The translations under genes and the position numbers were made by a program. A stretch of 64,000 bases of DNA, taken from the NCBI GenBank assembly GCA_019914945.1, contig CM034102.1, positions 7,863,501-7,927,500 on the forward strand, read 5' to 3'. Under the pieces are notes generated by a model. That model worked only from the letters and a program-made list of their open reading frames with translations. It was not told the DNA's origin and did not search any database. This DNA is from Typha latifolia (taxonomy: Eukaryota > Streptophyta > Magnoliopsida > Poales > Typhaceae). Shown in pieces: positions 8,286 through 63,575 of this stretch (the first letter of the stretch is position 1; each line of letters opens with the position of its first letter).

Positions 8286-9224
8286 TGTTAGGTTTTTAAT
8301 TGTTGGCAATTGTGTACAAAATATTCTAAGTGTATTTTTACATGTATGTGAGCTTTATATAAGTCTTATTGGAGAAAAGCTGTTGAGTTCACATCGCGTT
8401 CACAAACGCGTTCGAACGCGGTGCGTTCAAAAATGCGTTCGAACGCGGGTACTTGCGTTCACACAAACCAAGAGCTGCGTTTACAAACGCGTTTGAACGC
8501 GGGTACTACGTTCACACAGACCGAGAGCTGCGTTCATAAACGCGTTCGAACGCAACCTGAAGAATTCAAGTTGTCACGTTCGAATGCACTCAGGCCTGTT
8601 CGAACGCACTCAGGCCCATTCGAACGCACCTGAGATCAAGTCATGCCGTTCGAACGCACTTGGGCCGCGTTCAAATGCACCAACGAAGTTTGAAAATCTT
8701 AAACTTTCTTGAGTACGGATAAGACTAGGATTTGGCTCTATCTTGGAGATCATATATAAGGATTGTGATGCCCTATCTCTAGTGTGGTTGAAGAAGCATT
8801 ATTGAACGAGACTTCTTGTGGCTACATCGGTTCTTCAACTAACAAGTTTCCACTCATCTAAAAAAGTTAATCTTTCGTCTTAAGGGCTATCTAGACGAAA
8901 GATCAATCTCGAGGGTTACTGACGTTGGACTTCAATCACGAGAAGCAGTGAATCGTGGGTTCTAGCAAGCAAGATTGAGAGGAACAAAGTCGTTTGGATC
9001 GACGGGTTGTTTTGTGAGTTAGTCTTGTAACTGCTACTATTCTAGTGATTGGTTTTGATCCGAGTTTGGATTCGTGATTTTTTTCCTATTTGGGTTTTTC
9101 CACATTAAAATCTTGGCGTTCATCTCTGCTTTTGTTCTTAATATTTCTACGGACTTTTACTTAAGCAAACGAGTGATATCATTGCCTAGTATTTAGATAC
9201 ATACTTGTGTCTAGGTGTTTTTCA
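8286..9224 (+). mobile_element. Co1 (SIRE-like copia) solo LTR with 5-bp target duplication
   Basis: Begins TGTTAGG and ends TTTTTCA, 939 bp. It is flanked by AACTA at 8281-8285 and at 9225-9229, a perfect 5-bp target-site duplication. Inside are the palindrome array (about 8395-8680), a TATA box (TATATAAG, 8753-8760) and the conserved downstream region (ATCTAGACGAAAGATCAATC type). With no internal region, it is a solo LTR formed by LTR-LTR recombination. It lies within the older copia relic to its left. Confidence 0.9.
8395..8680 (+). repeat. TTCGAA palindrome array in a Co1 LTR
   Basis: Repeated GCGTTCGAACGC cores and half-sites (GCGTTCACAAACGCG, GCGTTCACACAGACCGAGAG) in units of about 53-54 bp, then more widely spaced cores. 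It ends about 70 bp before the TATA box of the same LTR. Many units carry CG-to-TG/CA changes. Confidence 0.85.
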
Positions 9225-9229
9225 AACTA

Positions 9230-10068
9230 AAATAAGTCAAAATCAACAAATTTGTATATTCAATTCTGCAGGTTGGGTGCGCATACCAAGCAGTGTCATT
9301 CGCACTCTAGCATGAAATTTACATAGAAGTTGCTATTGTTCAGAGCTTGATGCACACTAAATTAGTTGTTACGATCCAGCTTGATGAAGTTGCGAATGAA
9401 ATTCGAGATTAGTCCCAGTTCAGATCAAGGGTAGAACTTTCGATAAGAACTGCGGATGATCTAGTCATCTGATATATTGTTCCTCTTTAAGTAAGCGATA
9501 CAACGCAATCAAAATCATATCGATTAGAGGTGTAGATCAAAAGTTATAAGGGAAATACTAACCATTGGTTAGATTGCAGTGAAATGGACGTGATTAATAG
9601 AAGATAAAATAATGGTTAGGTATTGGGGGTGACAATGGCAGCGATGGTGGGGTAGAGCATTAAGCTAGACAAAGGGGTAGAGATGGACCGATCCTTGAGA
9701 GCTAAGGGGGCACGATCAGATTGAAGGAGGAAGTAGACAATATCCAATGATTGATGCCATTGGAGGAATGAGATAGAGGTATAGGAAGGTAAAACTTTAA
9801 TAATTCATCAATAGTTCAATCAAGTTGCCTTCCACATATTTAGAGGCTAACCTAACAAGCAAAATAATCAAAAAATAGCCCTAAAACAATGTAGTTCATC
9901 GATCACATTCGAACGCGATAAATACGTTCTTTGTATTTGCGAATATATGCAAGTATTTCAAGTCGGGTTCAAATGTGACTACCAGAAATATTTATTCTTC
10001 CAAAGTAAGAGTTATTTCCTTTAAGGAGGGTTGGTTAGGTCCAAGCCTTATCTAGTTGAATCATAACA
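9230..10068 (-). mobile_element. Gy3 LTR (antisense), left limit unclear
   Basis: Antisense LTR whose 5' end is firm: it finishes GAATCATAACA at 10068 (TGTTATGATTC in element sense), followed by a purine-rich tract (GTGAGGTGGGC antisense). It contains one TTCGAA core (GCGTTCGAATGTG in element sense), a TTCGCAAATACAAAGAACG module and the phrase TAAATATGTGGAAGGCAAC, also found in the LTR at 17866-18312. The left boundary is not visible; 9230-9600 may include unrelated DNA. Confidence 0.6.
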
Positions 10069-11274
10069 GCCCACCTCACATGACCCACCTTGCCCTCAAT
10101 GTGTGAAGTCGGGAAATCGATTGACGATCTCGGACTTGAGCTCCTATGTTGCCTCGTCGGATAGTTTGCCCAACCATTCAACCAAGATCTCAGTCTCTAG
10201 CCTCGAGCCATATTGCCTCCGTCATCGTGCTAGTACTCGTATCGGCTCCACCTGATGCAAATCCTCCTCGGGTTTGAGTAGAACGGACCTGCCAGTTGAT
10301 TTGGCTGAATCCTCCCCTTTAGCAATGAAACATGGAACACTGGTTGTACTTTGGTTCCCTTTGTTAGCTCAAGCTTGTAGGCGACTGGTCCAACATGCTC
10401 GCAAACTCAAAATGGACCAAAAAATTTAAATGCCAATTTTTGGTTCTAAATAGGGTGTAAGATGACTTAACGATAGGGTTGGACTCGTACAAACACCATG
10501 CCGCTCACACTAAACTCGCAATGATGCTGATTATACATTTGCTTCATCCAATTCTGGGCTGCTCTCAGATGCACCTACAACCTCCTAAGAATAGCATTGC
10601 GATCTATCAACGTCATATCAACCTTAGTCCGCTCCGATGAAGCCACAAAATCATACCAGCGCAACGTCGGTACCGCCTGCCCATATATTGCCTCGAATGG
10701 GTTCATGCCGGTGCTGCTATGATGAGCGGTGTTTTACTACCACTTAGCCCACGGAAGATACTCCAACTAGCGTTTGGGATGATCACACAAGAAACACCAA
10801 AGATATTGCACAATTCCCTGATTAACGCCCTTTGTTTGCTCATTGGTTTGCAGGTGGTATGCCGAGCTCAAAATTAGTTTTGTGGCCTGTAACTTGAAAT
10901 ATTAAGTCCACTAATAAATATTCGATCATGATTTGAAATTATTGGGCGAGGCATTCCATGAAGTTTAGCGACATTTTGGATTAAACATTTAGCTAGTGAT
11001 TTGGGAGAAAAAGGGTGCACGAAGGTTGAAAAATGAGTGTATTTGCTCAACCTGTCCACCACAACAAAGATTACTGAATATTCACGTACCAGCGGTAATC
11101 CCTCTATGAAATGAAATCCTTAGAGATGTCCTCTTAAACAAGATCCGGTACAAGCAAGGGTTGAAATAGTCCAGCCAGCTTTAAGGTCTCCATCTTCGCT
11201 CATTGACACGTCTTGCGCGCCCTCACATGTGCCTCGTCCTTCTTCATTTTGGCCAAGGTACAACTATAAGATAG
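10069..11274 (-). pseudogene. Gy3 gypsy integrase relic, part 1 (C-terminal two thirds)
   Basis: Minus-strand remnant of a gypsy integrase. At 11062-10874 the core reads MVDRLSKYTHF...KLHGMPRPII, the region of the first and second catalytic Asp; the second Asp is changed in SNHDRIF against the usual SDRDRVF. The C-terminal part runs down to about 10100 and ends near DEAT-ELKSEIVNRFP, the usual end of the chromodomain-like tail. Many stops and frameshifts are present. At 11274 it is interrupted by the Gy2 element 11275-17625 and continues at 17631. Confidence 0.75.
11270..11274. other. Left target-site duplication GATAG of the Gy2 element
   Basis: GATAG occurs immediately before TGATAC (11275) and again at 17626-17630, directly after the 3' LTR end CCATCA. 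The interrupted Gy3 integrase continues on both sides. Confidence 0.9.
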
Positions 11275-12070
11275 TGATACACTTAGTTAGGATTTTATTT
11301 TATTGTATTAGTTTTTTATTTTTATTAAAATAAAATACGTATAGGTCGCGTTCGAATGCCTTTGCGAACGCCTGCACCAAGTTCGCAAATACAGAGAACT
11401 CATATTGTGCGTTTGAACGCGGTCGGACGAGTTCGAACGCCTGCGTTCAAACACTTGCATCGCGTTCGTATATACAGAGAACGTCTTTTGTGCATTCGAA
11501 TGCGATCGACGGGAATCCTCTAGAATTAGGGTTACTTATTATTTTAGAACTTGTTGGCTAGCCTCTATAAATATGTGGATGGCAGCCAAATTCATTATGC
11601 TATTGAATTATTAATTTTTTACCTCCTATCTTCTCTCTAGACTCTCTCCCTCCTCCCTCTTCACCATCCTTCGACCTCTACTATTGGCAAGGTTTCTCCT
11701 AACTTCTAACCTCCCTCGTCTGTCAAGCCACCCCTCTTTTTTGGGATCTCAACCACTTCATTCTCTTAATCAATATCCCTTAATCACATCCACTATCCAC
11801 CCTCATCTCCATACCCATCCATAATCCTAATATCCACTCCATCCGTCACCACCACCATCACCCACATTTTTTCATATTTTTGTCTTAGTTGTAATTCGAA
11901 TATGTGAATGGCATAAATATTGAAGTTGTAGATCAGGAAGTTACAAATCTAATACACTTGATTCCTATAATACATCCAGATCTTAAAAGAATTGTTGCAT
12001 AGCCTATCTTTGGTACTGAGAACCCATTTATTTAGTATTAGAGCCTATTAGTTGGTACAAGAACCCATCA
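11275..12070 (+). mobile_element. 5' LTR of the Gy2 element
   Basis: Begins TGATACACTTAGTTAGGAT and ends AACCCATCA. U3 carries the TTCGAA array (about 11346-11509), followed by a TATA box CTATAAATAT at 11565-11574; transcription would start about 30 bp later. A C/T-rich leader follows. Near the 3' end a PBS-like copy (TTTAGTATTAGAGCC, 12031-12045) precedes a second LTR-end sequence, suggesting that the LTR end plus PBS was duplicated. Confidence 0.8.
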
Positions 12071-12072
12071 AT

Positions 12073-12088
12073 TGGGTATTAGAGCAGG
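12073..12088 (+). other. Primer binding site (initiator tRNA-Met), one base longer than consensus
   Basis: TTGGGTATTAGAGCAG next to the LTR end resembles TTGGTATCAGAGCAGG with an extra G and C-to-T. Family knowledge: this site anneals to the 3' end of initiator tRNA-Met to prime minus-strand synthesis. Confidence 0.7.
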
Positions 12089-12107
12089 CGAACCTCAGAC
12101 CTCCATT

Positions 12108-19550: not shown

Positions 19551-19752
19551 TGTAACAACCCAACCTTAAGAAAAAGCTAATTGCATGGCACGACGTAGCC
19601 AGCCACAGTGTGGCCGGCCTCGTTCCATGCAGTGGCAGGAGGGGAGCGCGCCACGCGGCCCAGGCACTGGCCTAACCAACCTAGTTGGGCCAGCTGGCGC
19701 GATGGGCCCTGCCACCGCCGTCGCGGCCTCTTTTCCCACTACCTCTCTTTCT

Positions 19753-19810
19753 CCCTCTATATATATCTCTCTCTCTCTCTTGCTCTCCCTTTCTCACTCT
19801 CTCTCTCGAT

Positions 19811-19858
<48 letters not shown>
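19753..19858. repeat. (CT)n microsatellite
   Basis: About 100 bp of almost pure CT dinucleotides with a few interruptions, inside the Tk LTR. It creates long artificial open frames on both strands. Confidence 0.95.
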
Positions 19859-19859
<1 letters not shown>

Positions 19860-22720: not shown

Positions 22721-23662
22721 TGATACGATCACACCTCTGGGGCTAAGGCTCTGATACCAGCTTGTTACGATCAGGCACGGAACTTTGAAATTAGATCCCG
22801 AAATATTCTATCGTCGGATCGACGTGAGATTTTGATATCTTGTAGCCTCGTAAAAGAGCTTTCCAACAAATCTAGTTACAGGTGAATCGGAGTTGGGGAT
22901 CTCGAGATATTGTTCATTTAGTGGACGAACATCAGGATGCTCTATTTTGGATTCGTGGATGGAGGCACGAGATCCTAAGTAATGGTGGATGGTGGTGGAC
23001 CGGCGTTAATGTGGTGGCACCGGTGAAAAGTGATGGTGGAACGGTTGTGGTTGATGGAAGGATTAGGGCAAGTGTTGGATAGATTGGACGAAGGGGGAGA
23101 AGAGGGCCACCCCTAAGGGACTAGGGTGATTAGCCGGACGAGGCAGGTTAGAAGCGGCGTCGCCGGGGATTGAGAGAACGGGAGCGAAGAAGACGAAGGA
23201 GGTAAGGCAAAACTCAATCTCAATAATTAATACCTGATTTTGGTTGCCCTACACATCCTTTTATAGGCTAACCAACAACTCACATTAACCCTAAAACATA
23301 ATTTTCGCCGACCACGTTCGAACTCGCCCGACCGCGTTCGAACGCACCGAATTAGCTCTTCTGGATTTGCGAACGCGATGTAAGCATTTGAACGCGTGAT
23401 CGAACGCGCCTGTCGGTATTTGCGAACGCGATGCAGGCGTTCACAGTGCGTTCGAACGCACCGCGTTCGAACGCACAGTACATTCTCTTCTCCACGTTCA
23501 CAACCCCGTTCACAAACCGCGTTCGAACTCACTCCACCCGCGTTCGAACGCGACTTACAGAAAACTTATTTTAATGGAAATTAAACACTAAAACATGAAA
23601 TAAAAACACTCCTAAAGTGAATGCATGTTCGAGACGACGTCGGTGAAGTCCGAATCGTATCA
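22721..23662 (-). mobile_element. Gy1 LTR (antisense) with an embedded PBS copy
   Basis: Starts TGATACGATC and ends AATCGTATCA, 942 bp. The antisense palindrome array lies at about 23305-23560. A PBS copy (antisense GGCTCTGATACCAGC, about 22748-22762) lies inside the LTR about 30 bp from its 3' end in element sense. On its right is the antisense polypurine tract (23663-23690) and integrase, so this is the 3' LTR of a minus-strand element. The left neighbour ACGTG (22716-22720) would be one target duplication; the partner is lost. Confidence 0.85.
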
Positions 23663-24357
23663 ATCCACCACGCTTCCGCAACCTTGTCCTCAAGGTTTGA
23701 AGTTTTGAAAGTGATCCATGATATCTGACTCTAGCTACCAGGTAGACTCGTTAGTAGATTTGCCCAGCCACTCAATTAGCACTTCCGTCTCTAATCTGGT
23801 CCCATGGCGTCTTCTCCTACGGTCTAATACTCGGACCGGTTCAGTGGGGCCATCCTCCTTCATTAGTTCGGGTAAGGCCGAACCCACCACCTGGTTAGGC
23901 CCGATCTGGGCCTTCAATGCTGATACATAGAAGACCGGATGTATCCTGGTTCCTTGAGTAGGTCCAACCGGTAAGCTACCTGGACCGATTCGTTGTAGCA
24001 CTCGGTACGGACCGTAGTACTTGTAACCCAACTTTTGGTTCAAAATTGGTCTCAATGTGGATTGCCGATACAGTTGAGCTCGAACGAACACCAATTGATC
24101 CACCTCAAATTCTCGCTCACGTCGGCCTTTGTCATGAGTTTGCTTCATGCGGTTTTGGGCTGTGGCTAGGTGAGTCTTGAGCAGTCTTAATGTTTCATCT
24201 CGATCAGCAAGCTCCAAGTCAAGCTCGGTCCTATCCGCCGCGAGTCTATCATAGGCACGGAAGACAGGGGGAGTGCGCCCAGAAACCGCCTCAAAGGGGG
24301 TCATGCCGATGCTAGAGTGATGAGCCGTATTGTATGACCACTCAGCCCATGGAAGGA
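23663..24357 (-). pseudogene. Gy1 integrase C-terminal fragment with chromodomain-like tail
   Basis: Minus strand. In element order it starts in PWAEWSYN, followed by MTPFEAVSGRTPPV, the helix-rich LLKTHLATAQNRMKQTHDKG, the GPYRVLQRIG core of the C-terminal domain, and a tail LIEWLGKSTNESTW, a chromodomain-like end. The polyprotein ends near NFKP, followed by the polypurine tract. An open stretch of 189 codons covers 24304-23735, with a stop right after STW. The upstream integrase core is missing because a plus-strand Gy1 LTR abuts at 24358. Confidence 0.85.
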
Positions 24358-25297
24358 TGATACGATTCGGACTTCACCGACGTCGTCTCGAGCATGGATT
24401 CACTTTAGGAGTGTTTTTATTTCATGTTTTAGTGTTTAATTTCCATTAAAATAAGTTTTCTGTAAGTCGCGTTCGAACGCGGGTGGAGTGAGTTCGAACG
24501 CGGTTTGTGAACGGGGTTGTGAACGTGGATAAGAGAATGTACTGTGCGTTCGAACGCGGTGCATTCGAACGCACTGTGAACGCCTACATCGCGTTCGCAA
24601 ATACCGACAGGCGCGTTCGATCACGCGTTCGAACGCCTGCATCGCGTTCGCAAATCCAGAAGAGCTAATTCGGTGCGTTCGAACGCGGTCGAGCGAGTTC
24701 GAACGCGGTCGGCGAAAATTGTGTTTTAGGGTTAATGTGAGTTGTTGGTTAGCCTATAAAAGGATGTGTAGGGCAACCAAAATTATCATTGATTATTGAG
24801 ATTGAGTTTTGCCTTGCCTCCTTCGTCTTCTTCGCTCCCGTTCTCTCAATCCCCGGCGACGCCGCTTCTAACCTCCCTCGTCCGGCTAATCACCCTAGTC
24901 CCTTAGGGGTGGCCCTCTTCTCCCCCTTCGTCCAATCTATCCCACACTTGCCCTAATCCTTCCATCAACCACAACCCTTCCACCATCACTTTTCACCGGT
25001 GCCACCACATTAATGCCGGTCCACCACCATCCACCACTACCTAGGATCTCGTGCCTCCATCCACGAATCCAAACATAGCATCCTGATGTTCGTCCACTAA
25101 ACGAACGATATCTCGAGATCCCCAAATCCGATTCGCCTTTAACTAGATTTGTTGGAAAGATCTTTTACGAGGCTACAACATATCAAAATCTCACATCGAT
25201 CCGACGACAGCATATTTTGGGATCTAATTTCAAAGTTCCGTGCCATATCGTATCAAGCTGGTATCAGAGCCTTAGCCCCAAAGAGAAGATCATATCA
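24358..25297 (+). mobile_element. Gy1 LTR (sense), complete, with duplicated PBS region at its 3' end
   Basis: Starts TGATACGATTCGGACTTC and ends GATCATATCA, 940 bp; start and end form a near 10-bp inverted repeat. The palindrome array is at 24469-24712 and the TATA box CTATAAAAGG at 24754-24763. A first PBS-like TGGTATCAGAGCC lies at 25259-25271, within the LTR, before the true end. It is close to identical to the antisense LTR at 22721-23662, giving an inverted pair. Confidence 0.85.
24469..24712 (+). repeat. TTCGAA palindrome array in a Gy1 LTR
   Basis: GCGTTCGAACGC cores at about 24469, 24547, 24617 and 24675 with variants between, interleaved with the module GCGTTCGCAAATACCGACAG / GTTCGCAAATCCAGAAGAGC. 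The array ends 42 bp before the TATA box. Confidence 0.9.
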
Positions 25298-26073: not shown

Positions 26074-26910
26074 GCCAAGATTTTAACGTGGAAAAACCCA
26101 AACGGGAAAAAACCACGGATCCAAACTCGGATCAAAACCAATCACTAGAATAGTAGCAGTTATAAGACTGACTCACAAAACAACCCGTCGATCCAAACGA
26201 CTTTGTTCCTCTCAGTCTTGCTCGCTAGAACCCACGATTCACCGCTTCTCGTGATTGAAGTCCAATCTCAGTAACCCTCGAGATTGATCTTTCGTCTAGA
26301 TAGCCCTTAAGACGAAAGATTAACTTTTGTAGATGAGTGGAACCTTGTTAGTTGAAGAACCGTTGTAGCCTCAAGAAGTCTCCTTCAATAATGCTTCTTC
26401 AACCACCCTAGATATAGGATTTCACAATCCTTATATATGATCTCCAAGATAGAGCAAAATTCAAATTTTATCCATACTCACAAATCCAAGTCTTATCCGT
26501 ACTCACGAAAGTCCAATTTTATCAACCTTCGTTGGTGCGTTCGAACGCGGCCCGGGTGCGTTCGAACAGCATGACTTGAACTCAGGTGCGTTCGAACGAG
26601 CCCGAGTGCATTCGAACGCGACAACTTGAATTCTTTAGGTTACGTTCGAATGCGTTTGTGAAAGCAGCTCTCGGTCGTGAACGCAGTACCCGTGTTTGAA
26701 CGCGTTTGTGAACGCGGCTCTTTGTCTGTGTGAACGCAGTACCCGCGTTCGAACGCGTTTGTGAACGCGGTGTGAACTCGACGGCTTTTCTCCAATAATC
26801 TTGCAATTTTTCAAACCAGAGATATTCTAGACTTGTGTAAAGCTCATATACATGAAAAAAATACACTTAGAATATTTTGTACACAATTGCCAACAAATAA
26901 AAACCTAACA
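26074..26910 (-). mobile_element. 3' LTR of copia A (antisense, 3' end truncated)
   Basis: Ends AAAAACCTAACA at 26910 (TGTTAGG in element sense). Contains the antisense palindrome array (about 26535-26785) and TATA region. The last 120 bp or so of the LTR (CTAGACACAAGTATG side) are missing at the left edge, where a Tk-like fragment abuts. Confidence 0.85.
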
Positions 26911-26924
26911 ATCTCCCCCTTTGG
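26911..26924 (-). other. Polypurine tract of copia A
   Basis: Antisense ATCTCCCCCTTTGG, i.e. CCAAAGGGGGAGAT directly before TGTTAG. A similar purine run (AAAAAGGGGGAG, antisense at about 27236-27250) lies just after the third ORF and could be a second tract. Confidence 0.8.
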
Positions 26925-42073: not shown

Positions 42074-45000
42074 ATGGATTTTCATAGAGATGGACCATCA
42101 TCTATTAGACCTCCTATCCTAGATGGATCAAATTATGGATATTGGAAAGCTAGGATGAGAGCTTACTTGAAGTCTATAGATGAACGAGTATGGTTTGCCG
42201 TTGTGAACGGTTGGAGTCCACCAATGTACATAGTGGATGATAAACTTGCTGATAAACTGATAGAGTCATGGGATAGGTCAAACTATGAAAAAGTTGGATA
42301 GAATAGCAAGGCAATAAATGCAATTTTTAGTTGTGTTTCCTCGGAAGAATTTAGAAGAATTTCTACTTGTGAGATAGCAAAAGAAGCTTGGACGATCTTA
42401 GAAACTACTCACGAAGGAACTATGGGTGTCAAACTTTCTAAATTTCAGAGGTTGACTACTAGTTTTGAAACTCTACGTATGGAGGAGAATGAGACATTTG
42501 ATGAGTTCTATGCAAAGCTGAGTGATATAGTCAACTCCAGTTTCAACCTAGGAGAGAAAATTTCTGAAAATAAAATTGTCCGTAAGATCCTTAGGTCTCT
42601 TCCAGAGAGGTTTCAAGCAAAAGTTACAGCTATTGAGGAAAGTAAGGACATCGATTCTATGAAAGTTGAACAATTGGTAGGAAATCTACAAACATTTGAG
42701 TCCAGCCTTTCAAGACCGAGGAAGTCCAAAGGGATTGCCTTATCCACAGTTGAACAAAGTATAGAGGACTCTGATGATGAAGGTGATTTAGATGTTGAGA
42801 TGTTGGCCATGTTCGTTAAAAAGTTCAATAAATTCTTTCGGAAGCCACACAAGTTGAATGCTGAAAAACTTGAGAAAAGCAAAGCCTTTGTGAAAAAGAA
42901 GAATACTGCAAGTTCGAACACAGGTGTGAGCAACAATGGTGTCAAACAGAAAATTAAGAATTCTAAGAATAAAGTTCGATGCTTTGAATGTTCTGGTTTT
43001 GGTCACATAGCACAAGAATGCCCTAATCACCTTAAGAAGAAAGGTAAAGCTATGAAAGTTACTTGGGATGACTCAGATGAATCTGATGATGATTCTGGAA
43101 AAGACGAAGAAAACTTTGTAGCTTTTGCCTCTTCTCTACTTAATATTGATTCCGTTATTGATACTGATAGTACAGATGATCAGGATATGTTACTAGCTGA
43201 AGAAGATGAATTTGAAATTCAAAAGACATATAATGACCTGTACCTGGAGTCGTTTAAACTCAAGAAAAGCAATCTTAGACTACATCAACGACTCAAGGTA
43301 ATTGAACCAGAAATAATTCAATTTGAGGTGAAGTACATATTGGAGCTTGAATGTGTCAAAGACCATTCTGAACAACTTGACAATGCGAAAAATAAAATGA
43401 AGGCTGATGAAATTGAACTAGAGCGATTGAATAAGGAAGTGACATTTCTAAAAGGGAAGAACAAACTTGATGAGATTCTAAAAGCTCAGATCTCTGGAAA
43501 AGACAGGTATGGTATTGGATACACTGGTAATTCAAATAATAACAAAACTGTCTTTGTTTCTGCAGGTATACAAAAGGAAGAATACCTGAAGCCATCAACC
43601 GCATTTACAAAGCAATCCTGGATGAATGCTTCTAAACTGAAGTTGAATCTACAAACTAGTGAAACTTCGACGGTACCAAAAGTAAATTCTCGTCACACTT
43701 CTCGACAAAAGGTGAGTAGAAAAAGGTTTGTTCCGACATGCTATCATTGCGGCATTCTAGGGCATATTCGACCTCGTTGCAAAATTTTGCAAAAACCTAG
43801 AAGTGTTTTTATTTATGGGATGAAAACAAAGGCCATATGGGTCAAGAAAAGTGATTTGAAATGTTATGTTGTACATACTGCCTTGAAAGCTTTAAATTCT
43901 GACTTGTGGTATTTAGATAGTGGCTGTTCAAGACATATGTCAGGCGACAAATCCTTATTTTCTAATCTCGAAAAACATGAAGGGAGAGTTGTGACATACG
44001 GAGATGGTAATTCATCCAAGGTAATAGGTAAAAGAAAGGTAAGTATTCCAGGTGTTCCTATTCTTGAAAATGTTCTTTATGTTAAGGACTTAAAAGCAAA
44101 TCTTCTGAGCATTAGTCAATTTTGTCATGAAGATTTTGAGGTAAAATTCTCCAAAAATGATTGTACTATTCTAGATCATGATGGTAATGTTATATGTTAT
44201 GGATCTAAAACATCTGATAATTGCTATGTTGTTGGAAAGTCACATAAACTAAAATGTAACAGTGCCTCTTTCGACATTGCAGATCTTTGGCATCAACGTC
44301 TTGGACATGTGAATCACAAAGAATTATTTACTCTGTCCAAACAAGAAGTGATAAGAGGAATACATAAGATGACATAAATGTCAAAAAGGGTTTGCGGTTC
44401 GTGTCAAATTGGAAAACAAACTAGGATTTCACACAAGAAGGTAAATGCAGCTACCACCGACCGTGTGCTCCAATTAGTTCACATGGACTTGATGGGTCCA
44501 ACAAAAACGGAAAGTCTTGGAGGTAAACGCTATATTTTCTTAATGGTCGATGATTACTCCAGATATACCTGGGTTGCCTTTCTACATGAGAAGTCTGAAA
44601 CCTTTGAAGTTTTTAAATCACTATGCTTAAAATTGCAGAATGAAAAATCTACTACCCTAGTTAGGATTCGTTCTGATCATGGTAGAGAATTTAAAAATTA
44701 AAATTTTTCTGTATTTTGCGATTCTCTTAGTATTCAACATGAATTTTCAGGTCCTATAACTCCACAACAGAATGGGATTGTGGAAAAAAAGAACCGAGTT
44801 GTGCAGGAAATGGCTAGGGTTATGCTTCATGCTAAAAAAGTTCCTCAAAAGTTTTGGGCAGAGGCGGTCAATACAGCGGTACATGTGATAAATCGTGTTT
44901 ATCTAAGACCAGGTACAAAATTGACTGCATATGAAATCTAGAAAGGTAAGAAACCTAGTGTTAAATATTTTCGAGTTTTTGGTAGTAAATGCTATATCTT

Positions 45001-46936
45001 GCGTGATCGAGAATATTTGACTAAATTTGACAGTAGAAGTAACGAAGGCATCTTCTTAGGATATTCGAGTAATAGCAGAGCCTACAGAGTATTTAATCTT
45101 AACACTTCTACTGTGATGGAATCTGCTAATGTAATGATAGATGAATCCACGACTGATTTAACTGAAGCTACTCCTATTTCTGTTTCTGCAGATACATATG
45201 ACGAAGAAATAGGAAAGGAGCTTGATCTGGAAATTGAGAATCAGGACGAGGACAAAGTTGAAATGAACAAAGATGAGCGCAACGCACCGGAACCATCCGC
45301 GAGTGAAATCAGATCATCCTTTGTCACAAGTGATCGGAGACATAAATGAACCAATTAAGACAAGACGACAAATCCAAAGTGAGGTATCATTTACTTGTTA
45401 TACATCTTCTTTTGAACCTAAAAATGTGTAGGAAGCATTGTTAGACGATTCTTGGGTTAATGCTATGCATGAGGAATTAGAGCAATTTTCTAGGAATGAT
45501 GTTTGGTATTTAGTTCCTAGACCTAAGAATGTGAACGTCATTGGAACAAAATTGATTTACAAGAATAAAAGTGATGAACATGGCAATATAGTTCGAAATA
45601 AAGCTAGACTCGTAGCACAGGGATATACTCAAGTTGAGGGTATAGATTTTGATGAGACATTTGCCCCTGTTGCTAGATTAGAATCTATTTATATACTGCT
45701 TGCTATTGCTTGTCACTTAAAATTTAAATTATTTCAAATGGATGTTAAAAGTGCTTTCTTGAATGGTACCCGGAATGAAGATGTTTATGTGGAACAACCG
45801 AAGGGGTTCGAAGATCAAAAATTTCCTTCTCATGTGTTTAAACTGAAAAAGGCCCTCTATGGGCTAAAACAAGCTCCAACAGCTTGGTATGAGAAGTTGA
45901 CCACTTTTTTAGTGGACACGGGGTTCACTCGAGGGGGAGTGGACAAGACATTATTCATTAGACGGTCGAACAGAAGTTTAGTTGTGGCACAAATATATGT
46001 GGATGATATTGGCTTCGGGGCAACGAGTCAATTGTTAGCTAAGGAGTTTGCTGATCTCATGCATAGCCATTTTGAGATGAGCATGATGGGTGAGTTGAAG
46101 TTCTTTTTGGGACTTCAAATTACTCAATTGGAAAGAGGGATATTTATCGCTCAAACCAAGTGCTAAGGATCTAGTGACTAAATTTGGTTTAGAAAATGCA
46201 AAACATGCTAGAACTCCTATGAGTACAACTACCAAACTAGGTAAGGATATTTCAGGACAAAGTGTTGATCAGACACTGTATAGGAACATGATTGGTAGTC
46301 TTTTGTACTTAACTGCTAGTAGACATGACATTGCATTTAGCGTCGGTGTGTGTGCTAGGTTTCAGTCTGAACCTAAGGAGACACATTTGTATGCTGTGAA
46401 ACGTATCATAAAATATGTCGGTGGCACAGTTGACTTAGGTATCTGGTTTACTTATGACTCGGGAGCTATCATATCTGAATACACGGATTCTGATTGGGCA
46501 GGTTCATGTGATGATAGAAAGAGTATCTCTGGTGAATGTTTTTATATTGGAAACAATCTGGTTGCTTAGCACAGTAAGAAACAAAACTTGATATCTTTAT
46601 CTACTACGGAGGCCGAGTACATTGCAGCGTGTAGTTGTTGTTCTCAATTACTATGGATGAAACAGATGGTCAAAGATTACGGCATTGAACAAGATATTAT
46701 GGTGCTTTATTGTGACAACATGAGTGCTATTAATATATCGAAGAACCTGTTCAACACTCGCGTACTAAACATATTGATATCCGACATCATTTTATACGCG
46801 AGTTAGTTGAAGACAAAATAATAGCACTAGAACATGTTGAGATAGAGAAACAGTTGGGTGATCTATTTATAAAACCTTTGGATTTATAGAGATTTGAGTA
46901 TCTTTGTACTTCTTTAGGCATTTGTGCTTTGGATTG
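42074..46936 (+). pseudogene. Copia F gag-pol polyprotein, broken by several stops and frameshifts
   Basis: Starts MDFHRDGPSSIRPPILDGSN. Gag: a helix-rich capsid-like region (42422-42830), knuckle CFECSGFGHIAQEC (about 42980-43020), a Glu-rich coiled-coil-like stretch (43190-43480) and a second knuckle CYHCGILGHIRPRC (about 43740). Protease LWYLDSGCSRHM (about 43905). Integrase: DDYSRYTWVAFL (about 44550), SDHGREF (about 44680), then the Glu region. RT: IYVDDIGFGA (about 46000), where relatives have IVFGA. RNase H runs to TSLGICALD. One frame of 651 codons spans 42422-44377. Breaks: stops at 42299, 44375, 44699, 44939, 45429, 46567 and 46888; frameshifts near 45300, 46166 and 46760. Gag-pol is a single reading frame in this lineage. 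Confidence 0.92.
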
Positions 46937-47958: not shown

Positions 47959-48494
47959 GCGTTCGAACGCAGATTTTTGAGTTCGAACGCGGTGACTGGC
48001 GCGTTCGAACGCGCAGACTGGTGCGTTCGAATACACTCGAGGATTCTTTAAATATTGCGTCCGAACCCAAGGGTATTCATCTTCCATCTTCCAAACCCTA
48101 GAAACCCATCATTTCCTCCCTCTCGAATCTTCAAGATCTTGGTATTTTTCATCAAATCTTTTAGAGGGTAGTTCTCCTTTGGATCTTGCATCTTTCGGCC
48201 GAATTTCTGAGTTTTTCTTCACTTTTGCGAGGTATGATCATCCATCAATTTTCCTATTTTTTTATTCAATTAAGTCTTTTGATCTTGATTGATTTTGTGC
48301 GTTTTCAAGTTTTGATCACGTTAAAGTTACTATCTTGATGTTTCTTGTGTGATTGAACGTGATATCTTAGCGTTTTCAAGTGGATGATGGATTTCATTTA
48401 GGGCCTTCATGGTTTCTTTATTTCTTTTTGATTTCTTGTTTTTTTTGGTTGTTTTGGGCATGTATTGAAACTTGCATCTTGTTTCTTCCTCAAG
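47959..48494 (+). promoter_or_regulatory. Internal palindrome array, TATA-like box and probable leader intron before the third ORF
   Basis: Four TTCGAA cores (47959-48033), two of them perfect GCGTTCGAACGC, in a region otherwise AT-rich. A TATA-like TTTAAATA lies at 48047-48054. A C/T-rich leader-like stretch follows (48070-48225), with a donor GCGAG|GTATGA at 48231/48232 and an acceptor CTTCCTCAAG ending at 48494, right before ATG 48496. The antisense copy at 28150-28235 keeps the donor and two cores. Reading this as a promoter plus intron is inference. Confidence 0.5.
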
Positions 48495-48495: not shown

Positions 48496-49426
48496 ATGCC
48501 TAGGAAAGCTGCAGTTTCCAAGAAACCTAGGCCGCCTTCATCACCATCTTCGGCCCCAAAGTTTTCTACTTCAACGGCTGCAGGATGATACAAAAATAAT
48601 TTTGGCACCCGTCCTATTATTTGTGAACGACCCGTGGTCATTTCCGATTTTTCATCTTTGGGGATCGAACAGATATTTACTGAGCGAGGATGGTTATCGG
48701 TGTGTCGGATGAAAGGGACTGCTTATGTGGAAGTTGTTTGCGAATTCTGTTGTAATGCCACCGTTTTAGAACGTTGTATTCGTTCTACTGTTCGTGGGGT
48801 GTCTGTATACTTGGACTCTGATGTTATTCGAGCTGAACTTCGTCTTCCTGATGGTGAGTTCCAGTATCCCACGTCTGCTCCACTTCTTGATGTCGATGAA
48901 TATGCTGGCACAGTACTGATCAAAGGGGAACGTTGGAAGGGAAACATGATGCCGCATGCGAAACTGACACCAGTGGCTCGCATGCTTCACCTGTTTTGTT
49001 TGTCCAACGTTACTCCCAAAACTCGACATTCCAGTATCAGTTTGGATCGTGCATTCCTTCTTCATGCAATGTTATCTGGAGTCTCTGTTGATTTGGCTGC
49101 GATGATCTATGATTTGATTCTCACAGCTGCATAAAAAGAAGCACCTCATGAAGGGTTACCGTTTGGCATCTTTATTACGAATTTGTGCATTCAGAGTGGG
49201 GTGCGTGTGGATGCTTCGGAACCTTCCATTACTTCGCACAAACCGTTGGATCGGATTACTCTTAAGCGGAGTCAAGCTCACGACTAGTCGTCTCCTCTCA
49301 AGCCGTCCTCTAAGGGGGAGTTACCACAGTACTCTAATCGTTTCGATCAACTTAGTACTCAAGTGCGGGATCTCCATTTGGCAATGACTGATTTACGAGC
49401 TGAGCAAGCTCGTCAGGGGACTGTAC
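48496..49426 (+). pseudogene. Third ORF of copia F (putative plant transposon / env-like protein), broken
   Basis: Starts MPRKAAVSKKPRPPSSPSSA, a basic, Pro/Ser-rich N-terminus that could be a nuclear signal. A frameshift near 48590 leads into one open frame to 49134 with IEQIFTERGWLSVC, YVEVVCEFCCNATV, VYLDSDVIRAELRLPDG, KGNMMPHAKLTPVARML and SSISLDRAFLLHAM. After a stop at 49134 it continues GLPFGIFITNLCIQSGVRV and ends in the coiled-coil-like NRFDQLSTQVRDLHLA before the Tk junction. The middle resembles the putative plant transposon protein domain found after pol in SIRE/Maximus elements. No membrane segment or signal peptide is evident, which argues against a classical envelope protein. 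Confidence 0.75.
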
Positions 49427-56524: not shown

Positions 56525-56978
56525 TGATACACTTAGTTAGGATCTTTTCTTATTGCATTAGTTATTTATTTTCACTAAAATAAAATTCCTATAGGTCACG
56601 TTCCAAAGCAGGAGGGGTCATGTTCGAATGCCCTTGCCAACGCCTGCATTAGATTTGCAAATATAGATAACGTGTATTATGCATTGGAACACGATCGGGC
56701 GAGTTCGAACGCCCGCATTCGAACACCTGCATCATGTTCGCACATACAGAGAATGTCTTTTGGTGTGTTCGAACATTATTAAGCGCGTTCGAACGCGATC
56801 GGCGGGAATCGTCTATAATTAGGGTTACTTATTGTTTTAGGACTTGTTGGCTAGCCTTTATAAATATGTGGATGGTAGCCAACTTAATTATGCTATTGGA
56901 TTATTAATGTCTTACCTCCTATCTTCTCTCTACACTCTCTCCCTACTCCCTCTTCACCATCATTCCACCTCTACCCAC
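56525..56978 (+). mobile_element. Truncated 5' LTR of element E
   Basis: Keeps U3 with the array (about 56597-56810), the TATAAATATG box near 56859 and part of the leader, then jumps at about 56978 into gag. LTR 3' end, PBS and gag start are deleted. Confidence 0.8.
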
Positions 56979-58004: not shown

Positions 58005-59044
58005 TATTAGGTTTTCAATTGTTAGCAATTGTGTAGAAAATATTCTAAGTATATGAGCGTTATACAAGTCTAGAAAATCTCTGGTTTGAAGAATTGCAAG
58101 ATTACTAGAGAAAAGCTTTTGAGTTCACATCGCGTTCACACCACGTTCACAAACGTGATCGAACGCGGGTAATTGCGTTCATAAAGACCGAGAGCTGCGT
58201 TCACAAACGCGTTCGAACGCGGGTACTTGCGTTCACATAGACCAAGAGCTGCGTTCACAAATGCGTTCGAACACGGGTACATGTGTTCACACAGACCGAG
58301 AGCTTCGTTCACAAATGCATTTGAACGCGGGTACATGCATTCACACAAACCGAGAGCAGCGTTAACAAACGCATTCGAACGCAACTTGAAAAGTTCAAGC
58401 TGTCGCGTTCGAATGCACTTGGACCCGTTCGAACGCACCTGAGATCAAGTTAGTCTATTCGAACGCACCCGGGCTGCGTTCGAACACACCAACGAAGTTT
58501 GATATTCTTGGACTTTCGTGAGTTCAGATAAGACTTGGATTTGGCTCTATCTTGGAGATCATATATAAGGATTGTGATGCCCTAACTCTAGGGTGGTTGA
58601 AGAAGCAATATTGAAGGAGACTTCTTCAGGCTACATCCGTTCTTCAACTAATAAGGTCCTACTCTTCTAAAAAGCTTAATCCTTCGTCTTAAGGGCTATC
58701 TAGCCAAAAGATCAATCTCGAGGGTTACTAAGGTTGGACATCAATCATACGAAGCAATGAATCGTGGGTTCTAGCGTGCAAGACTGAGAGGAACAAAGTC
58801 ATTTGGATCGACGGATTGTTTTGTGAGTCAGTCTTCTAATTGCTACTATCCTAGCGATTAGTTTTGATCCGAGTTTGGATCCGAGTTTGGATCCGTGATT
58901 TTTTCCCGTTTAGATTTTTCCACGTTAAAATCTTGGCGTTCATCTCTACTTTTGTTTTTTATATTTCTTCGAACTTTTAGTTAAGCGAACGAGTGATATC
59001 ATTGCCTAGTATTTAGATACATACTTGTGTCTAGGGGTTCTTTA
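58005..59044 (+). mobile_element. Co1 solo LTR in element E (sense), TSD GCAAT
   Basis: Starts TATTAGGTTTTC (TGTTAGG with G-to-A), ends GGGGTTCTTTA, 1,040 bp. Flanked by GCAAT at 58000-58004 and 59045-59049. The array spans about 58130-58490 with units of 54 bp. Removing it restores the RT-to-RNase H reading of element E. Confidence 0.88.
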
Positions 59045-59128: not shown

Positions 59129-60102
59129 TGAAATAACCCCTAGACACACGTATGTATCTAAACATTAGGCAAAGATATTTTTCGTTTGCTTAAGTAAACA
59201 TTAGACGAAATATTAAAAAAGAAAGCAGAGATGTACGCCATGATTTTAACGTGGAAAAACCCAAACGGTAAAAAACCACTGATCCAAACTCGGATCAAAA
59301 CCAATCACTAGAATAGTAGCAGTTACAAGACTGACTCACAAAACAACCCGTCGATCCAAACGACTTTGTTCCTCTCAGTCTTGCTCGCTAGAACCCACGA
59401 TTCACTGCTTCTCGTGATTGAAGTCCAATCTCAGTAACCCTTGAGATTGATCTTTCGTCTCTATAGCCCTTAAGACCAAAGATTAAGATTTGTAGATAAG
59501 AAGAGCCTTGTAAGTTGAACAACCAATGTAGCCTCCAAAAAGTCTCCTTGAATAATCTTCTTCAACCCATCAAGTTAGGGCAACACTATCCTTATATATC
59601 ATCTCCAAGATAGAGCCAAATCCAAGTTATATTCGTACTCATGAAAATCCAATAAATTGCAAACTTCATAGGTGCGTTCGAACGCGGCCCGTGTGCGTTC
59701 GAACGGCCTGACTTGATCTCAGGTGCGTTCGAACGGGCCCAAGTGCGTTCGAACGCAATAGCTTGAATTCTTCAGGTTGCGTTCGAACGCGTTTGTGAAC
59801 GCTGCTCTCGGTCTGTGTGAACGCAGTGCCCGCGTTCGAACGCGTTTGTGAACGCGGCTCTCGGTCTGTATGAACGCAGTGCCCACGTTGGAACGCGTTT
59901 GTGAACGCGGCTCTCTGTCTGTGTGAACGCAGATTTCGCGTTCGAACGCGTTTGTGAACGCGGTGTGAACGCGACGGCTTTTCTCCAATGATCTTGCAAT
60001 TCTTCACACCAAAGATATTCTAGACTTGAGTAAAGCTCATATACATGTAAAAATACACTTAGAATATTTTGAACACAATTGCCAACAATTAAAAACCTAA
60101 CA
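59129..60102 (-). mobile_element. Co1 solo LTR in element E (antisense), TSD GCATA
   Basis: Starts TGAAATAACCCCTAG, ends AAAAACCTAACA, 974 bp. Flanked by GCATA at 59124-59128 and 60103-60107. The array at 59672-59975 has seven exact TTCGAA cores and one TTGGAA variant. It sits inside the RNase H coding sequence. Confidence 0.93.
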
Positions 60103-60853
60103 GCATAGGAGCTATATTAATGCAAGGAGGACGTTCCATTGCCTTTCGTAGCAAGGCTTTATCACAAAAATCGAAGCAATTATCGACTTACGAGAGAGAG
60201 ATGTTAGTAATTCTACATGCGATGACAAAGCAAAGGCCTTATTTGATTGGTTGACAATTCATTATCCGAATCGATCAAAGGAGCCTTCCATACTTTATGG
60301 GACAGCATATACACACTCCGGCACAGCAATGTTGGGTCACCAAATTACTAGGGTATGATTATGAAATCCAATACAAGAAGGGAACAGAAAATAGAGCGAC
60401 GGATGCACTATCGCGCCAACCCGATATCACCGAGCTTGTAGCCTATTCTTCTCCTACCTTTCCCTTACTTGACGAGCTGAGGTATGCATGTACATCTGAC
60501 CCAGATATATTGAGATTGTTGCAGGAAGTGATGGATCATCCGGAGCGACATCTAGAGTTGGAGAATCGAGGCAATTTGCTGCTGGACCGCGGATGCATTC
60601 GGGTGCCCGCAAATGATAGATTGTGGCAAAAATTGTTAGAGCACTTCCACCAAACTCTAGAGGTTGGTCATGAGGGTGTCTTGAGGACTTATAGGAGGAT
60701 ATCTCAGAGTTGTACGTGGCCAGGATTGAGGCAGGATGTGAGGAGTTTTGTCTGTGCTTGCAAAGTCTGTCAAAGAGCTAAGGCAACCACATTAAAACCG
60801 GCCGATTACTACAGCCTTTACCTATACCGGATCGTATTTGGAAAGACATTTCC
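60103..60853 (+). pseudogene. Element E RNase H end and integrase zinc-binding domain
   Basis: Continues IGAILMQGGRSIAF, YEREMLVILHAMTK, WVTKLLGYDYEIQYKKGTEN and DALSRQPD (about 60405), then integrase HFHQTLEVGHEGVL and CACKVCQRAKATT (about 60740-60790), giving the His-His-Cys-Cys zinc site. An intact frame begins at 60297 and runs into the next LTR at 60854. Confidence 0.88.
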
Positions 60854-61763
60854 TGATATGATTCGAACTTCGTCGATGTCGTCTCGAGCATGGATTCACG
60901 TTAGAGTGTCTTTATTTCTTGTTTTAATGTTTAATTTCTAAGAAAATAAGTTTTCTATAAGTCGCGTTCGAACGCGGGTGGCCTGAGTTCGAATGCGGTT
61001 GTGAACAGGTTGTGAGAGTGTGCATTATGTGTTCGAACGCCCCATTTGAGCGCACTATGAATGCCTACATCGCGTTCGCAAATCTAGAGAAGTGGGAAAT
61101 AGGTGCATTCGATCGCGCGTTCGCAAATTTAGAAAAGAGCGAACTCGGTGTGTTCGAACGCGGTCAGCGAAATTGGATTGTTTAGGGATAATTTTGAGTT
61201 ATTTGGTTAGCTTCTAAAAGGGATGTGGATGGCAACCAAAAGATAATTATTGAAGAATTGAGTTTTGCCTTGCCTCATTCGTCTTCTTCGCTCTCGTTCT
61301 CTTAATCCCCGGTGACGCCGCTTCAAACCTCCCTCGACCGGCCAATCACCCTAGACCCTTAGGGCCGGCCCTCTCCTTCCCCTTCTTCCAATCTATCAAA
61401 CACTTTCCCTAACCCTACCATCAACCATAACCTTTCCATCACCACTTTTCACCAGTGTCATCCCACAAACGTCGATCCACCTCCAACCAGCATCATCCTA
61501 AGATCTCGTGCCTCCATCCATGGATCCTAAATAGACCATTTTGATGTTCATCCACTAATCAGACAATATCTCGAGATCCCTAGATTTGATTCCCCTAGAA
61601 CTTAATTTGTTAGAAAGCTCTTTTCTGGGACTACAATATATCCATTTCATGTTGATCCGATGGTGGCATCTTTCAAGATCTTATTTCAAAGTTCCATGCC
61701 AAATCCAGTCCAGATCAAAGAATTGGAAGAGATCGAACCTTAGCCTAAGGGGATATCGTATCA
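60854..61763 (+). mobile_element. Gy1 solo LTR in element E, TSD TTTCC/TTTCT
   Basis: Starts TGATATGATTCGAAC and ends GGATATCGTATCA, 910 bp, with a decayed array (about 60962-61175). Target duplication TTTCC (60849-60853) and TTTCT (61764-61768) differ at one base. Unlike the Gy1 LTRs at 22721, 24358 and 36788 it has no embedded PBS copy near its end. It interrupts integrase between the zinc domain and the core. Confidence 0.88.
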
Positions 61764-62815
61764 TTTCTATGGACTTTATAGAGGGTCTTCTACTGATACG
61801 TGGTTATTCCATTATCTTTGTGGTGTTTGACAGATTAAGCAAGTATGCGCACTTTTTGGCATTATCACATTCGTTTTCAGTCAAGTCGGTGGCTGAAATT
61901 TTTGTTAGAGATGTTGCTCGGTTACATGGTATGTCACACACAATTGTCTCAGATCGTGATCGTGTATTTATGAGCGACTTTTGGACTGAGTTTTTCAGAT
62001 TGTAGGAGACTCAATTGAATTTTAGTTTGGCCTACCATCCATAGATGGATGGTCAAACCGAGGTGGTTAATCGAGGCATTGAGCAGTATTTGAGGTGCTT
62101 TGTTCGAAAGATGCCGAGACAATAGTTGGAGTTCTTACCGTGGGCGGAGTGGTCTTATAACACCGCCTACCATAGCAGTATTAGCATGACTCTATTTGAG
62201 GTGGTGTATGGATGCAGGTCTCCGACGTTATGTGTGCTTATGATCCAGTGGCATCTGCAGATTGGACGAAGGTGGACGTAGCTTTGATGGATAGAGATGC
62301 CACATTGAGGAGGTTGTGCGCATATCTTAAACTTGCTCAAAACTGCATGAAGCAAGTTTATGATCGTAACCATAGTGAGCTAGAGTTCGACATCGGCAGT
62401 TGGGTGTCTGTGAGGGTGCAACCGTATCGACAGTTGACATTGTGTCTGATGCATAACCAAAAGTTAGCGCATCGCTACTTTGGTCCATTTCGGGTGTTGG
62501 AGCGTATTGGTCTGGTTACATATCATTTGGACTGGCCAGAGGGCTCGAGGGTGCATCTTGTCTTCTATGTTTCATTGTTGAGAGAGCACATTGGAGATCA
62601 TTAGATCGTTCGATTAGTTCTACCGAATCAATTGGAGGAGATAGAGATTGTAGAGCCAGTTCGTGTACTTGCTAGACGCCGTCGATGACATGGTACCAGA
62701 TTGGAGATGGAGATTTTAGTTCAGTGGCTTGGCAAGCCATCCGATGAGGCGACATGGGAGTTGGAGACTGACATTTTGGAACGTTTCCTTGACTTTTCAC
62801 CTTCAAGGCAAGGTG
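61764..62815 (+). pseudogene. Element E integrase core and chromodomain-like tail
   Basis: Core: ISMDFIEG (first Asp), VSDRDRVFMSDFW (second Asp), [15 protein letters not shown] (Glu). Then LEFLPWAEWSYNTAYHSS, the helix LKLAQNCMKQVYDRNH, FGPFRVLERIG and the tail EILVQWLGKPSDEATWELET. A few stops (62005, 62041, 62125, 62602, 62687) and a frameshift near 62215 break it. It ends before a purine-rich tract (GGCAAGGTGGGGAGT) next to the 3' LTR. Confidence 0.88.
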
Positions 62816-62821
62816 GGGAGT

Positions 62822-63575
62822 TGATACACTTAGTTATGATCTTTTCTTATCGCATTAGTTATTTATTTTTATTAAAATAAAATTCATTTAGGTCGCATTC
62901 GAATGCAAGAGGGGTCGTGTTCGAACGCCCTTGCGAATCCCTCCATCAGGTTCGCAAATACAGAGAACGCATATTGTGCGTTTGAATGCAATCGGGAGCG
63001 TTCGAATGCCTGCATCGTGTTCGCACATACAGAGAACGTCTTTTGGTGTGTTCAAACGTGATCGGGCGCATTCGAATGCGATCGGCGGGAATCCTCTAGA
63101 ATTAGGGTTACTTATTATTTTAGGACTTGTTGGTTTGCCTCTATAAATATATGGATGGCAGCCCTCTTCACCATCCTTCCACCTCTACCGTTGGCAAGGT
63201 TTCTCCTAACTTCTAACCTCCCTCGTCTGTCAAGCCACTCTTCCTAACTTCATTCCCTTCGTCTGCATCCCTTAATCGCATCCATCATCCACCTTCATCT
63301 CCATACCCCATCCATAGCCCTAACATCCACTCCACCCGTCACCACCACCATCACCCACATTATTTCGTATTTTTGTCCCAGTTGCAATTCCAATCTTCGA
63401 AGGGTATAAATACGAATGTTGTAGATAAAGAATTAAAAATCTAATCCACTTAGTTTTGTAATTTTATAGCTATCCGAGAATATTTGAAAAATATTTTTCG
63501 TACAGTTGCGCGGACTGATTCCTGTACTACATCCAGATCTTGAAGTAATCGTTGCATAGACTATCTTTGATACAA
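62822..63575 (+). mobile_element. 3' LTR of element E
   Basis: Starts TGATACACTTAGTTATGATC. Array about 62892-63085, box CTATAAATATATGG near 63140, then a leader shortened relative to 11600-11650 (GGCAGCC joins CTCTTCACC). Ends near CTTTGATACAA at 63575. Confidence 0.8.

Follow-up and report, generated by a model that had tools for sequence, protein, structure and literature searches.

Palindromic arrays upstream of the TATA box, and a cassette common to Ty1/copia and Ty3/gypsy long terminal repeats, in Typha latifolia

Background

The promoters of long terminal repeat (LTR) retrotransposons are thought to evolve within lineages. The closest described counterparts of the sequences reported here are the repeated motifs (RM boxes) of Sireviruses, which are described by Bousios et al. 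(2010; PMC2829016) as palindromic, CpG-rich and repeated many times in the LTR, in its upstream half and a short distance ahead of the TATA box; further copies are located upstream of an extra frame in the interval between pol and the 3' LTR. In that study, the motif is called Sirevirus-specific and absent from the classic copia elements examined there, and Tnd-1 is given as the one exception lacking the CGG-CCG signature. Here, a 64-kb stretch of Typha latifolia DNA (assembly GCA_019914945.1, contig CM034102.1, positions 7,863,501 to 7,927,500; hereafter the window) was analysed together with sampled loci and genome-wide pattern counts of this one genome. Arrays of GCGTTCGAACGC, a perfect 12-bp palindrome with a TTCGAA core, are carried by five LTR families, three of which are Ty1/copia (Co1, Co2 and Co3) and two Ty3/gypsy (Gy1 and Gy2). 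A cassette of ca. 61 bp, composed of palindromes and spacers, is homologous between Co2 and Gy2, with a more distant version in Gy1.

The Co1 arrays resemble the RM boxes in being palindromic, CpG-rich and located before the TATA box, and in having further copies before an extra frame; the element itself also has the octamer AGGGGGAG followed by AT and TG at its 3' LTR junction. The arrays differ in their core, TTCGAA instead of the CGG-CCG signature, and in that the palindrome also occurs in Gy1, Gy2 and Co3 and the whole cassette in Co2 and Gy2. On the gypsy side, LTRs of Del elements (Ty3/gypsy) contain CpG islands, which are lacking in a eudicot Del group, and have in common with the families described here a CpG-rich region of variable length at the 5' side of the LTR; unlike the present case, no palindromes are mentioned in that paper, and no sharing with copia is claimed in the passages considered (PMC4029996). 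In the Tnt1 group, the U3 (unique 3') regulatory part evolves independently of the coding part, a modularity confined to one Ty1/copia group, with no transfer to Ty3/gypsy reported in the portion of the source used (PMC1838419). The copia-gypsy sharing of a palindromic array appears to be new: no cassette common to copia and gypsy was reported in the open-access titles and abstract starts, and GCGTTCGAACGC was tied to no plant retrotransposon in the titles listed; judged by title, none of the papers containing TTCGAACGC together with retrotransposon concerns plant LTRs. All of this is weak negative evidence.

Palindromic arrays in LTRs of both superfamilies

GCGTTCGAACGC occurs 29 times in the window and 14,944 times across the 214-Mb genome, as compared with ca. 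4 copies predicted by base composition alone (hand arithmetic) and none for the control, the same pattern read backwards. This outcome of a genome-wide search that had been proposed in a first-pass annotation of the window rules out chance or composition as the source of the copies. Twenty random 10-kb loci (out of 60 drawn from 158 Mb of larger contigs), denser in perfect 12-mers than the genome mean (155 vs 70 per Mb), contained 31 of them and 18 arrays with at least three TTCGAA. The array side of assigned LTR copies holds 28 of these 31 12-mers; two others are found at LTR edges, one bordering a Co1 array on its outer side (L011:4884) and one in a Gy1-like stretch (L013:9689), and the last lies outside any LTR found (L016:6486). 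Based on flank likeness, 14 of the 18 arrays correspond to Co1, Gy1 or Gy2 and that of L009 to Co3, the three without family assignment being those of L006, L013:3907 (weak Gy1 match only) and L016. The window has 15 arrays with at least three TTCGAA, only one of which is located outside an LTR (Table 1). Those that the first-pass annotation had placed at 24469-24712 (Gy1; four perfect 12-mers, seven TTCGAA), 8395-8680 and 59672-59975 (Co1; three and five perfect 12-mers, respectively) were recovered, as was the Gy2 array at 11346-11509, except that the latter holds no perfect 12-mer, having three TTCGAA and five cores within two mismatches; six arrays absent from its list are indicated in Table 1.

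The three families of the window (Co1, Gy1 and Gy2) were defined by self-comparison of the window and Pfam scans, which uphold the superfamilies first assigned. In Co1, a tRNA-type primer site comes after the LTR, then a copia gag frame, and matches to RVT_2, rve and Pol_BBD were obtained in internal regions. Gypsy-type reverse transcriptase (RT)/RNaseH and integrase frames are linked to the LTRs of Gy1 and Gy2 (RVT_1, SH3_Tf2-1 and Integrase_H2C2; Table 1); the Gy2 internal RT stretch (14306-14892) has 67.5% identity to the RVT_1 frame at 195-1655, and a protease-like Gy2 frame (13244-13870) has a match under the Pfam cut-off. The other two families were met in sampled loci. Co2 is represented by L003 (overlapped by L028), L029, L030 and L031, four among 40 loci scored of 1,358 candidates, and its R-U5 (repeat-unique 5') part, measured on L003, has 71% identity over 425 bp to the corresponding part of Co1. 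In another LTR, assigned to Co2 by its R-U5 match (L033), a Co1-gag-related frame occurs on the same strand ca. 350 bp past that match (tblastn 5.8e-32). Co3, which seems to resemble Tork-type copia, is found at L009 (overlapped by L025), L026 and L027, from 40 scored of 255 candidate places; likeness of its R-U5 to the other families is no longer than 11-21 bases, and in L032 copia gag-like and Pol_BBD sequences lie downstream of a Co3 LTR.

Several copies of these families are found in particular contexts. A Gy1 solo LTR (60855-61761) is nested in a Gy2 integrase region, the uninterrupted counterpart of which is located near 15702. Six Co2 LTR matches, with four of five steps of ca. 5.12 kb, occur in a region (G000 C5:9788200-9819251) that looks like a tandem of LTR-internal units. 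At L009 (7177-7900, within 6600-9600), a Co3 LTR is located between exon-like pieces of a Neprosin gene, so that both the array and the TATA box of this LTR lie in an apparent intron.

A cassette colinear in copia and gypsy LTRs

The cassette occurs in the same order, spacer, palindrome, spacer, palindrome, in a Co2 LTR (L030) and in a Gy2 LTR (L013). Their gapped alignment has 55 identical positions out of 65, with one gap and a score of 42.5, as compared with a mean of 19.1 (sd 1.7, max 24) for 200 controls in which palindromes were kept and all other letters shuffled. In addition, the 18-bp spacer TTCGCACATACAGAGAAC is shared without a mismatch by a Gy2 LTR of the window (Table 1) and the Co2 LTR of L003; this exact 18-mer, which lies mostly outside the palindrome, was counted 321 times genome-wide and the reversed pattern not once.

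The spacers alone were compared after masking palindromes and half-sites, with two blindly chosen copies per family and 200 shuffles. The highest score (20) was obtained for Co2-Gy2, with a maximum of 11 in shuffles (0/200) and 6 for the reverse complement. The score of Co2-Gy1 (11) was reached by none of the 200 shuffles, that of Co1-Gy2 (13) by one and that of Co1-Co3 (10) by 11. A second test, for which each family contributed as many as four copies and 40 shuffles were made, gave 0/40 for both Co1-Gy1 and Co1-Gy2, and 18/40, 32/40 and 29/40 for Co2-Co3, Co3-Gy1 and Co3-Gy2, respectively. Alignment of spacers across superfamilies, suggested at first pass as a check, was thus far stronger for Co2-Gy2 than for the Gy1-Co1 pair then put forward, and a likeness limited to TTCGAA is ruled out for Co2-Gy2 by both the spacer and the cassette alignments.

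For a wider view, the segment most like the cassette was extracted from each of 44 copies, and those with a score of 22 or more, 34 in all, were aligned. Mean identity was 0.71 for Co2-Gy2 (48 pairs) and 0.67 for Co2-Gy1, with 0.77 within Co2, figures that lean high because segments were chosen by their likeness to the L030 copy of Co2; it was 0.76 for Gy1-Gy2 and 0.79 within Gy2. The value of 0.60 for Co1-Co2 is not like-for-like, because Co1 segments have a palindrome where the others have a spacer; the Co1 form of the spacer is located further upstream, with four mismatches. In Co2, the cassette or a decayed form occurs at the same place of the LTR in all four loci, which speaks against a single nested insertion. 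On the R-U5 side, downstream of the TATA box, copia-gypsy matches cover only 11-19 bases (E 0.046 or worse). Capture or exchange of a module among unrelated retrotransposons, as suggested earlier, is therefore supported by a cassette that exceeds palindrome-keeping controls and by the lack of alignment downstream of the TATA box.

Arrays of sites are known to have grown independently in LTRs, and each superfamily might have multiplied the same host-factor site on its own, with a likeness limited to the palindrome. This convergence would suit Co3, the spacers of which have no significant likeness to those of Gy1 or Gy2 (scores of 8 each, reached by 131/200 and 79/200 shuffles). For Co2-Gy2, it is ruled out by the colinear cassette, whose score lies well above the control maximum, and the exact 18-mer common to both families also argues against it; as an explanation of the arrays as a whole, convergence seems unlikely.

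Position, spacing and decay of the arrays

Forty-four LTR copies reaching the TATA side were compared, counting as a core any match with up to two mismatches and reading 120 bases for a TATA box (L031, listed under Co1 in this comparison, was counted as Co2). At least one core was found in 42 of the 44 and at least three in 39, and a TATA-like word follows the last core in 34 at a distance of 30-99 bp. In each of the five families the arrays precede the TATA side, and within most families the distance from the last core to the TATA box is nearly constant: 74-75 bp in seven of nine measurable Co1 copies (95 and 99 in two), 74 bp in three of four Co2 copies (95 in one), 30 bp in 3/3 for Co3, 48-49 bp in 7/7 for Gy1 and 61-64 bp in ten of 11 Gy2 copies (83 once). 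Of the TATA positions given previously, 8753 is exact while 24754 and 11565 are each one base short (24755 and 11566 as measured), and the array-TATA interval of 42-73 bp becomes 48 (Gy1), 62 (Gy2) and 74 (Co1) when measured from the last core.

A spacing of 20-22 bp between the two cores closest to the TATA box was measured in 6/9 copies of Co1, 2/4 of Co2, 3/3 of Co3, 8/11 of Gy1 and 4/12 of Gy2. Recurring core spacings are phased at ca. 10-10.5 bp, with a near-zero phase at 10.5 (R 0.42, p ~0.002) and a phase of 1.5 for a period of 10 (R 0.50).

The observed/expected CpG ratio is 1.36-2.18 in arrays versus 0.54-0.85 downstream. Among 113 singly changed cores, 59 display CpG transitions, which represent only 6 of the 36 possible changes; together with the CpG contrast, this excess indicates that arrays of old copies decay like methylated CpG DNA.

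Co1 as a probable Sirevirus-type element

Co1 is probably a Sirevirus-type copia. At the one junction read, the polypurine octamer AGGGGGAG is followed by AT and by the TG of the LTR start (26910, minus strand), 10 bp upstream of the 3' LTR, an arrangement that is a Sirevirus hallmark. The octamer is bordered by an inverted repeat with its other arm in the 3' LTR (CACAAATTGCCAA and TTGGCAATTGTG, 26882-26933, minus strand), which was found by eye and has arms that differ in length by one base. Eight to ten cores, where Sireviruses have at least eight RM boxes per element, mostly in the upstream LTR half, were counted in seven of ten Co1 copies (up to two mismatches, 450 bases before and 120 after a reference point close to the TATA box). 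The Sirevirus feature of a CpG-rich cluster shortly before the TATA box is also present, the mean CpG observed/expected ratio being 1.76 in the ten arrays listed as Co1 (L031 included). The distribution of further octamers gives a mixed picture. Sireviruses are described as having several identical octamers in the linker near the 3' LTR and few elsewhere, 0.3 per element (PMC2829016); in this Co1 copy, two more occur at 27239 and 27424 (minus strand), within 0.52 kb of the junction as predicted, but two are also located inside the pol frames (30736 and 32688).

The interior of Co1 has a second array, of four TTCGAA cores, in the interval from pol to the 3' LTR, where these cores and a TATA-like TTTAAATA precede a frame with a Transposase_32 match (Table 1). 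Two cores are left at the same place in another Co1 copy (28195-28220). Sireviruses with an envelope-like frame are described as carrying palindromic boxes at this very pre-frame place (PMC2829016). Because Co1 has Sirevirus hallmarks and pre-TATA palindromic arrays have been published for Sireviruses, the array architecture is already known on the copia side, which makes this side less surprising than it first seemed.

Proposed role of the arrays and alternative explanations

We consider it fairly probable that the arrays are U3 sites for a host factor driving LTR transcription, and that the cassette was exchanged between Sirevirus-type copia and gypsy elements and kept through a common factor. 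In this proposal, the promoter-proximal palindromic sites, located just upstream of the TATA box and often ca. two helical turns apart, would most likely be bound by a dimeric host DNA-binding factor predicted to drive transcription of the LTR. Through template switching or recombination, the probable routes, the ca. 61-bp cassette would have crossed with its spacers between a Ty1/copia lineage of Sirevirus type and a lineage of Ty3/gypsy, to be retained because both make use of the same factor. The position of the arrays, their CpG richness, the ca. 21-bp spacing and the second array in Co1 point towards a function as enhancers and a host factor in common. The data establish that the cassette is shared and colinear, where the arrays lie and to which superfamilies their carriers belong; binding, activation, the factor in common, and the route and direction of transfer are inferred. 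An extended version, in which the cassette moved repeatedly between copia and gypsy so that thousands of LTRs answer one factor, possibly one that the Sirevirus-type element encodes and the others exploit, seems improbable.

Several results weigh against the exchange and its proposed role. Masked spacers of Co1 and Gy1 score 10, which is reached by 16 of 200 shuffles, is below the reverse complement (11) and is not significant, so that the likeness first reported for this pair is suggestive only even with the 0/40 obtained with four copies; the Co3 spacers likewise lack significant likeness to gypsy. A strict genome-wide search for the spacer linked to the Co2 TATA region returned only two places. 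Ten of the 44 copies gave no TATA distance, two of them being coreless and eight, mainly Gy1 and Gy2, having no TATA match in the 120 bases read. The phasing of core spacings is a hint only, because it was tested after the spacings had been seen and the copies are related. Finally, arm changes of the palindrome are not mirrored beyond expectation among changed cores: arm pair 3-10 has 13 joint changes vs 12.4 expected, and the sole excess, at pair 4-9 (6 vs 0.5 expected), involves no mirrored change, so that selection on symmetry is not visible in these mostly decayed copies.

A different role would be that of a self-pairing RNA, since full-length RNA includes the U3 part at its 3' end, where the arrays might form hairpins, serve in packaging or be a source of small RNA and have spread for that reason. 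Such a role has reportedly been proposed for maize Sirevirus palindromes by Bousios and colleagues in 2016. All four arrays that were folded are far more stable than dinucleotide shuffles (z -4.2 to -7.3), a result that does not discriminate because any array of palindromes folds well. The two arms do not change in concert, and both the near-constant TATA distance and the ca. 21-bp spacing belong to the DNA level; RNA structure is in our view a doubtful explanation.

The arrays might also derive from a host tandem repeat taken up by several LTRs. Consistent with this, core steps of 53 bp occur 15 times in Co1, and ca. 61-bp units were found at L016 outside any LTR. The location of the 12-mers in the random loci rules out a simple satellite as the main explanation, in agreement with the first-pass placing of the arrays in LTRs, and the upstream position common to all five families further makes satellite capture very unlikely. 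The L016 units (6303-6497) are tandem, contain TTCGAA cores and lie ca. 1.4 kb upstream of a bHLH-MYC frame (7935-9095); each holds a stretch like the reversed Co1/Co3 spacer, and they may be an LTR relic or a use in a host promoter. As for a factor encoded by the elements themselves, comparable to the VANC proteins of Arabidopsis VANDAL elements, with the product of the Co1 Transposase_32 frame or another element protein binding the arrays, for activation or to counter silencing, and other families exploiting it, the second Co1 array precedes that frame as if self-regulated, but the frame may simply be the one that Sireviruses usually have at the env position, and this possibility is highly improbable.

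With respect to the host factor of the preferred explanation, TTCGAA fits the CHR element TTYRAA, which is bound by LIN54 and whose reading residues are conserved in Arabidopsis TSO1 (PMC4974476). This reading is weakened because LIN54 favours sites in which one or both of the central positions are A-T pairs (PMC4974476), while both are C-G pairs in TTCGAA; in addition, the GCG...CGC arms are not explained by CHR. Three other candidates were rejected by reading. The consensus of the VOZ site is GCGTN7ACGC, and the GCGT and ACGC half-sites of the 12-mer are four bases apart, not seven. The tRNA B-box (TFIIIC) consensus closes with a C that the palindrome lacks, and the heat-shock element has a gap of two between TTC and GAA, which here abut.

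Features of the window

Coordinates are given in Table 1. A local tandem repeat is also present in the window (19733-20090), pieces of which occur in L006 (ca. 4000-4120) and L013 (ca. 3090). Other Pfam matches correspond to an F-box propeller in the window and to Petal formation-expressed, Neprosin and bHLH-MYC in sampled loci.

Table 1. Arrays, cassettes, TATA boxes and coding frames in the window
Feature	Position	Strand	Basis
Co1 LTR array, 3 perfect 12-mers	8408..8657	+	core listing
Co1 LTR array, 2 perfect 12-mers (absent from first-pass list)	26537..26756	-	core listing
Co1 LTR array, 3 perfect 12-mers; LTR then copia gag frame (absent from first-pass list)	41151..41479	+	core listing, Pfam scan
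Co1 LTR array (absent from first-pass list)	58209..58487	+	core listing
Co1 LTR array, 5 perfect 12-mers	59674..59949	-	core listing
Gy1 LTR array (absent from first-pass list)	23314..23551	-	core listing
Gy1 LTR array, 4 perfect 12-mers, 7 TTCGAA	24469..24706	+	core listing
Gy1 LTR array (absent from first-pass list)	37433..37671	-	core listing
Gy1 solo-LTR array	60859..61040	+	core listing, self-comparison
Gy2 LTR array, 0 perfect 12-mers	11348..11503	+	core listing
Gy2 LTR array	33820..33926	-	core listing
Gy2 LTR array	40403..40586	+	core listing
Gy2 LTR array (absent from first-pass list)	56620..56796	+	core listing
Gy2 LTR array	62895..63079	+	core listing
Second array inside Co1, 4 TTCGAA cores, between pol and 3' LTR	47959..48034	+	
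Cassette in Gy2 LTR (spacer, palindrome, spacer, palindrome)	11381..11440	+	
Cassette in another Gy2 LTR	62950..63009	+	
18-bp spacer TTCGCACATACAGAGAAC in Gy2 LTR, identical in Co2 LTR L003	63020..63037	+	
TATA box, Co1	8753..8758	+	
TATA box, Gy2	11566..11571	+	
TATA box, Gy1	24755..24760	+	
Polypurine octamer AGGGGGAG, then AT, then LTR start TG (Sirevirus hallmark)	26913..26920	-	
Co1 gag/Pol_BBD frame (copia)	42302..44374	+	Pfam scan
Co1 RVT_2 frame (copia)	45432..46163	+	Pfam scan
Second Co1 RVT_2 frame	29738-31078		Pfam scan
Co1 extra reading frame, Transposase_32 match, between pol and 3' LTR	48589..49131	+	
RVT_1/RNaseH (RT_RNaseH) frame, gypsy, beside Gy1-like LTR end	195..1655	-	Pfam scan
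SH3_Tf2-1 frame, gypsy, ca. 75 nt before Gy1 LTR	23738..24373	-	Pfam scan
Integrase_H2C2 frame within Gy2 element	60255..60938	+	Pfam scan

Conclusions

The factor behind the palindromic boxes of Sireviruses was left open in 2010 (PMC2829016), and an exchange across the copia-gypsy divide would offer a handle on it, with two independent promoter backgrounds in which to seek it and a palindrome pair, ca. 21 bp apart and beside the TATA box, as a directly testable bait. If the proposed explanation is true, unrelated parasites of one genome would share a control switch, and might be awakened or silenced together.

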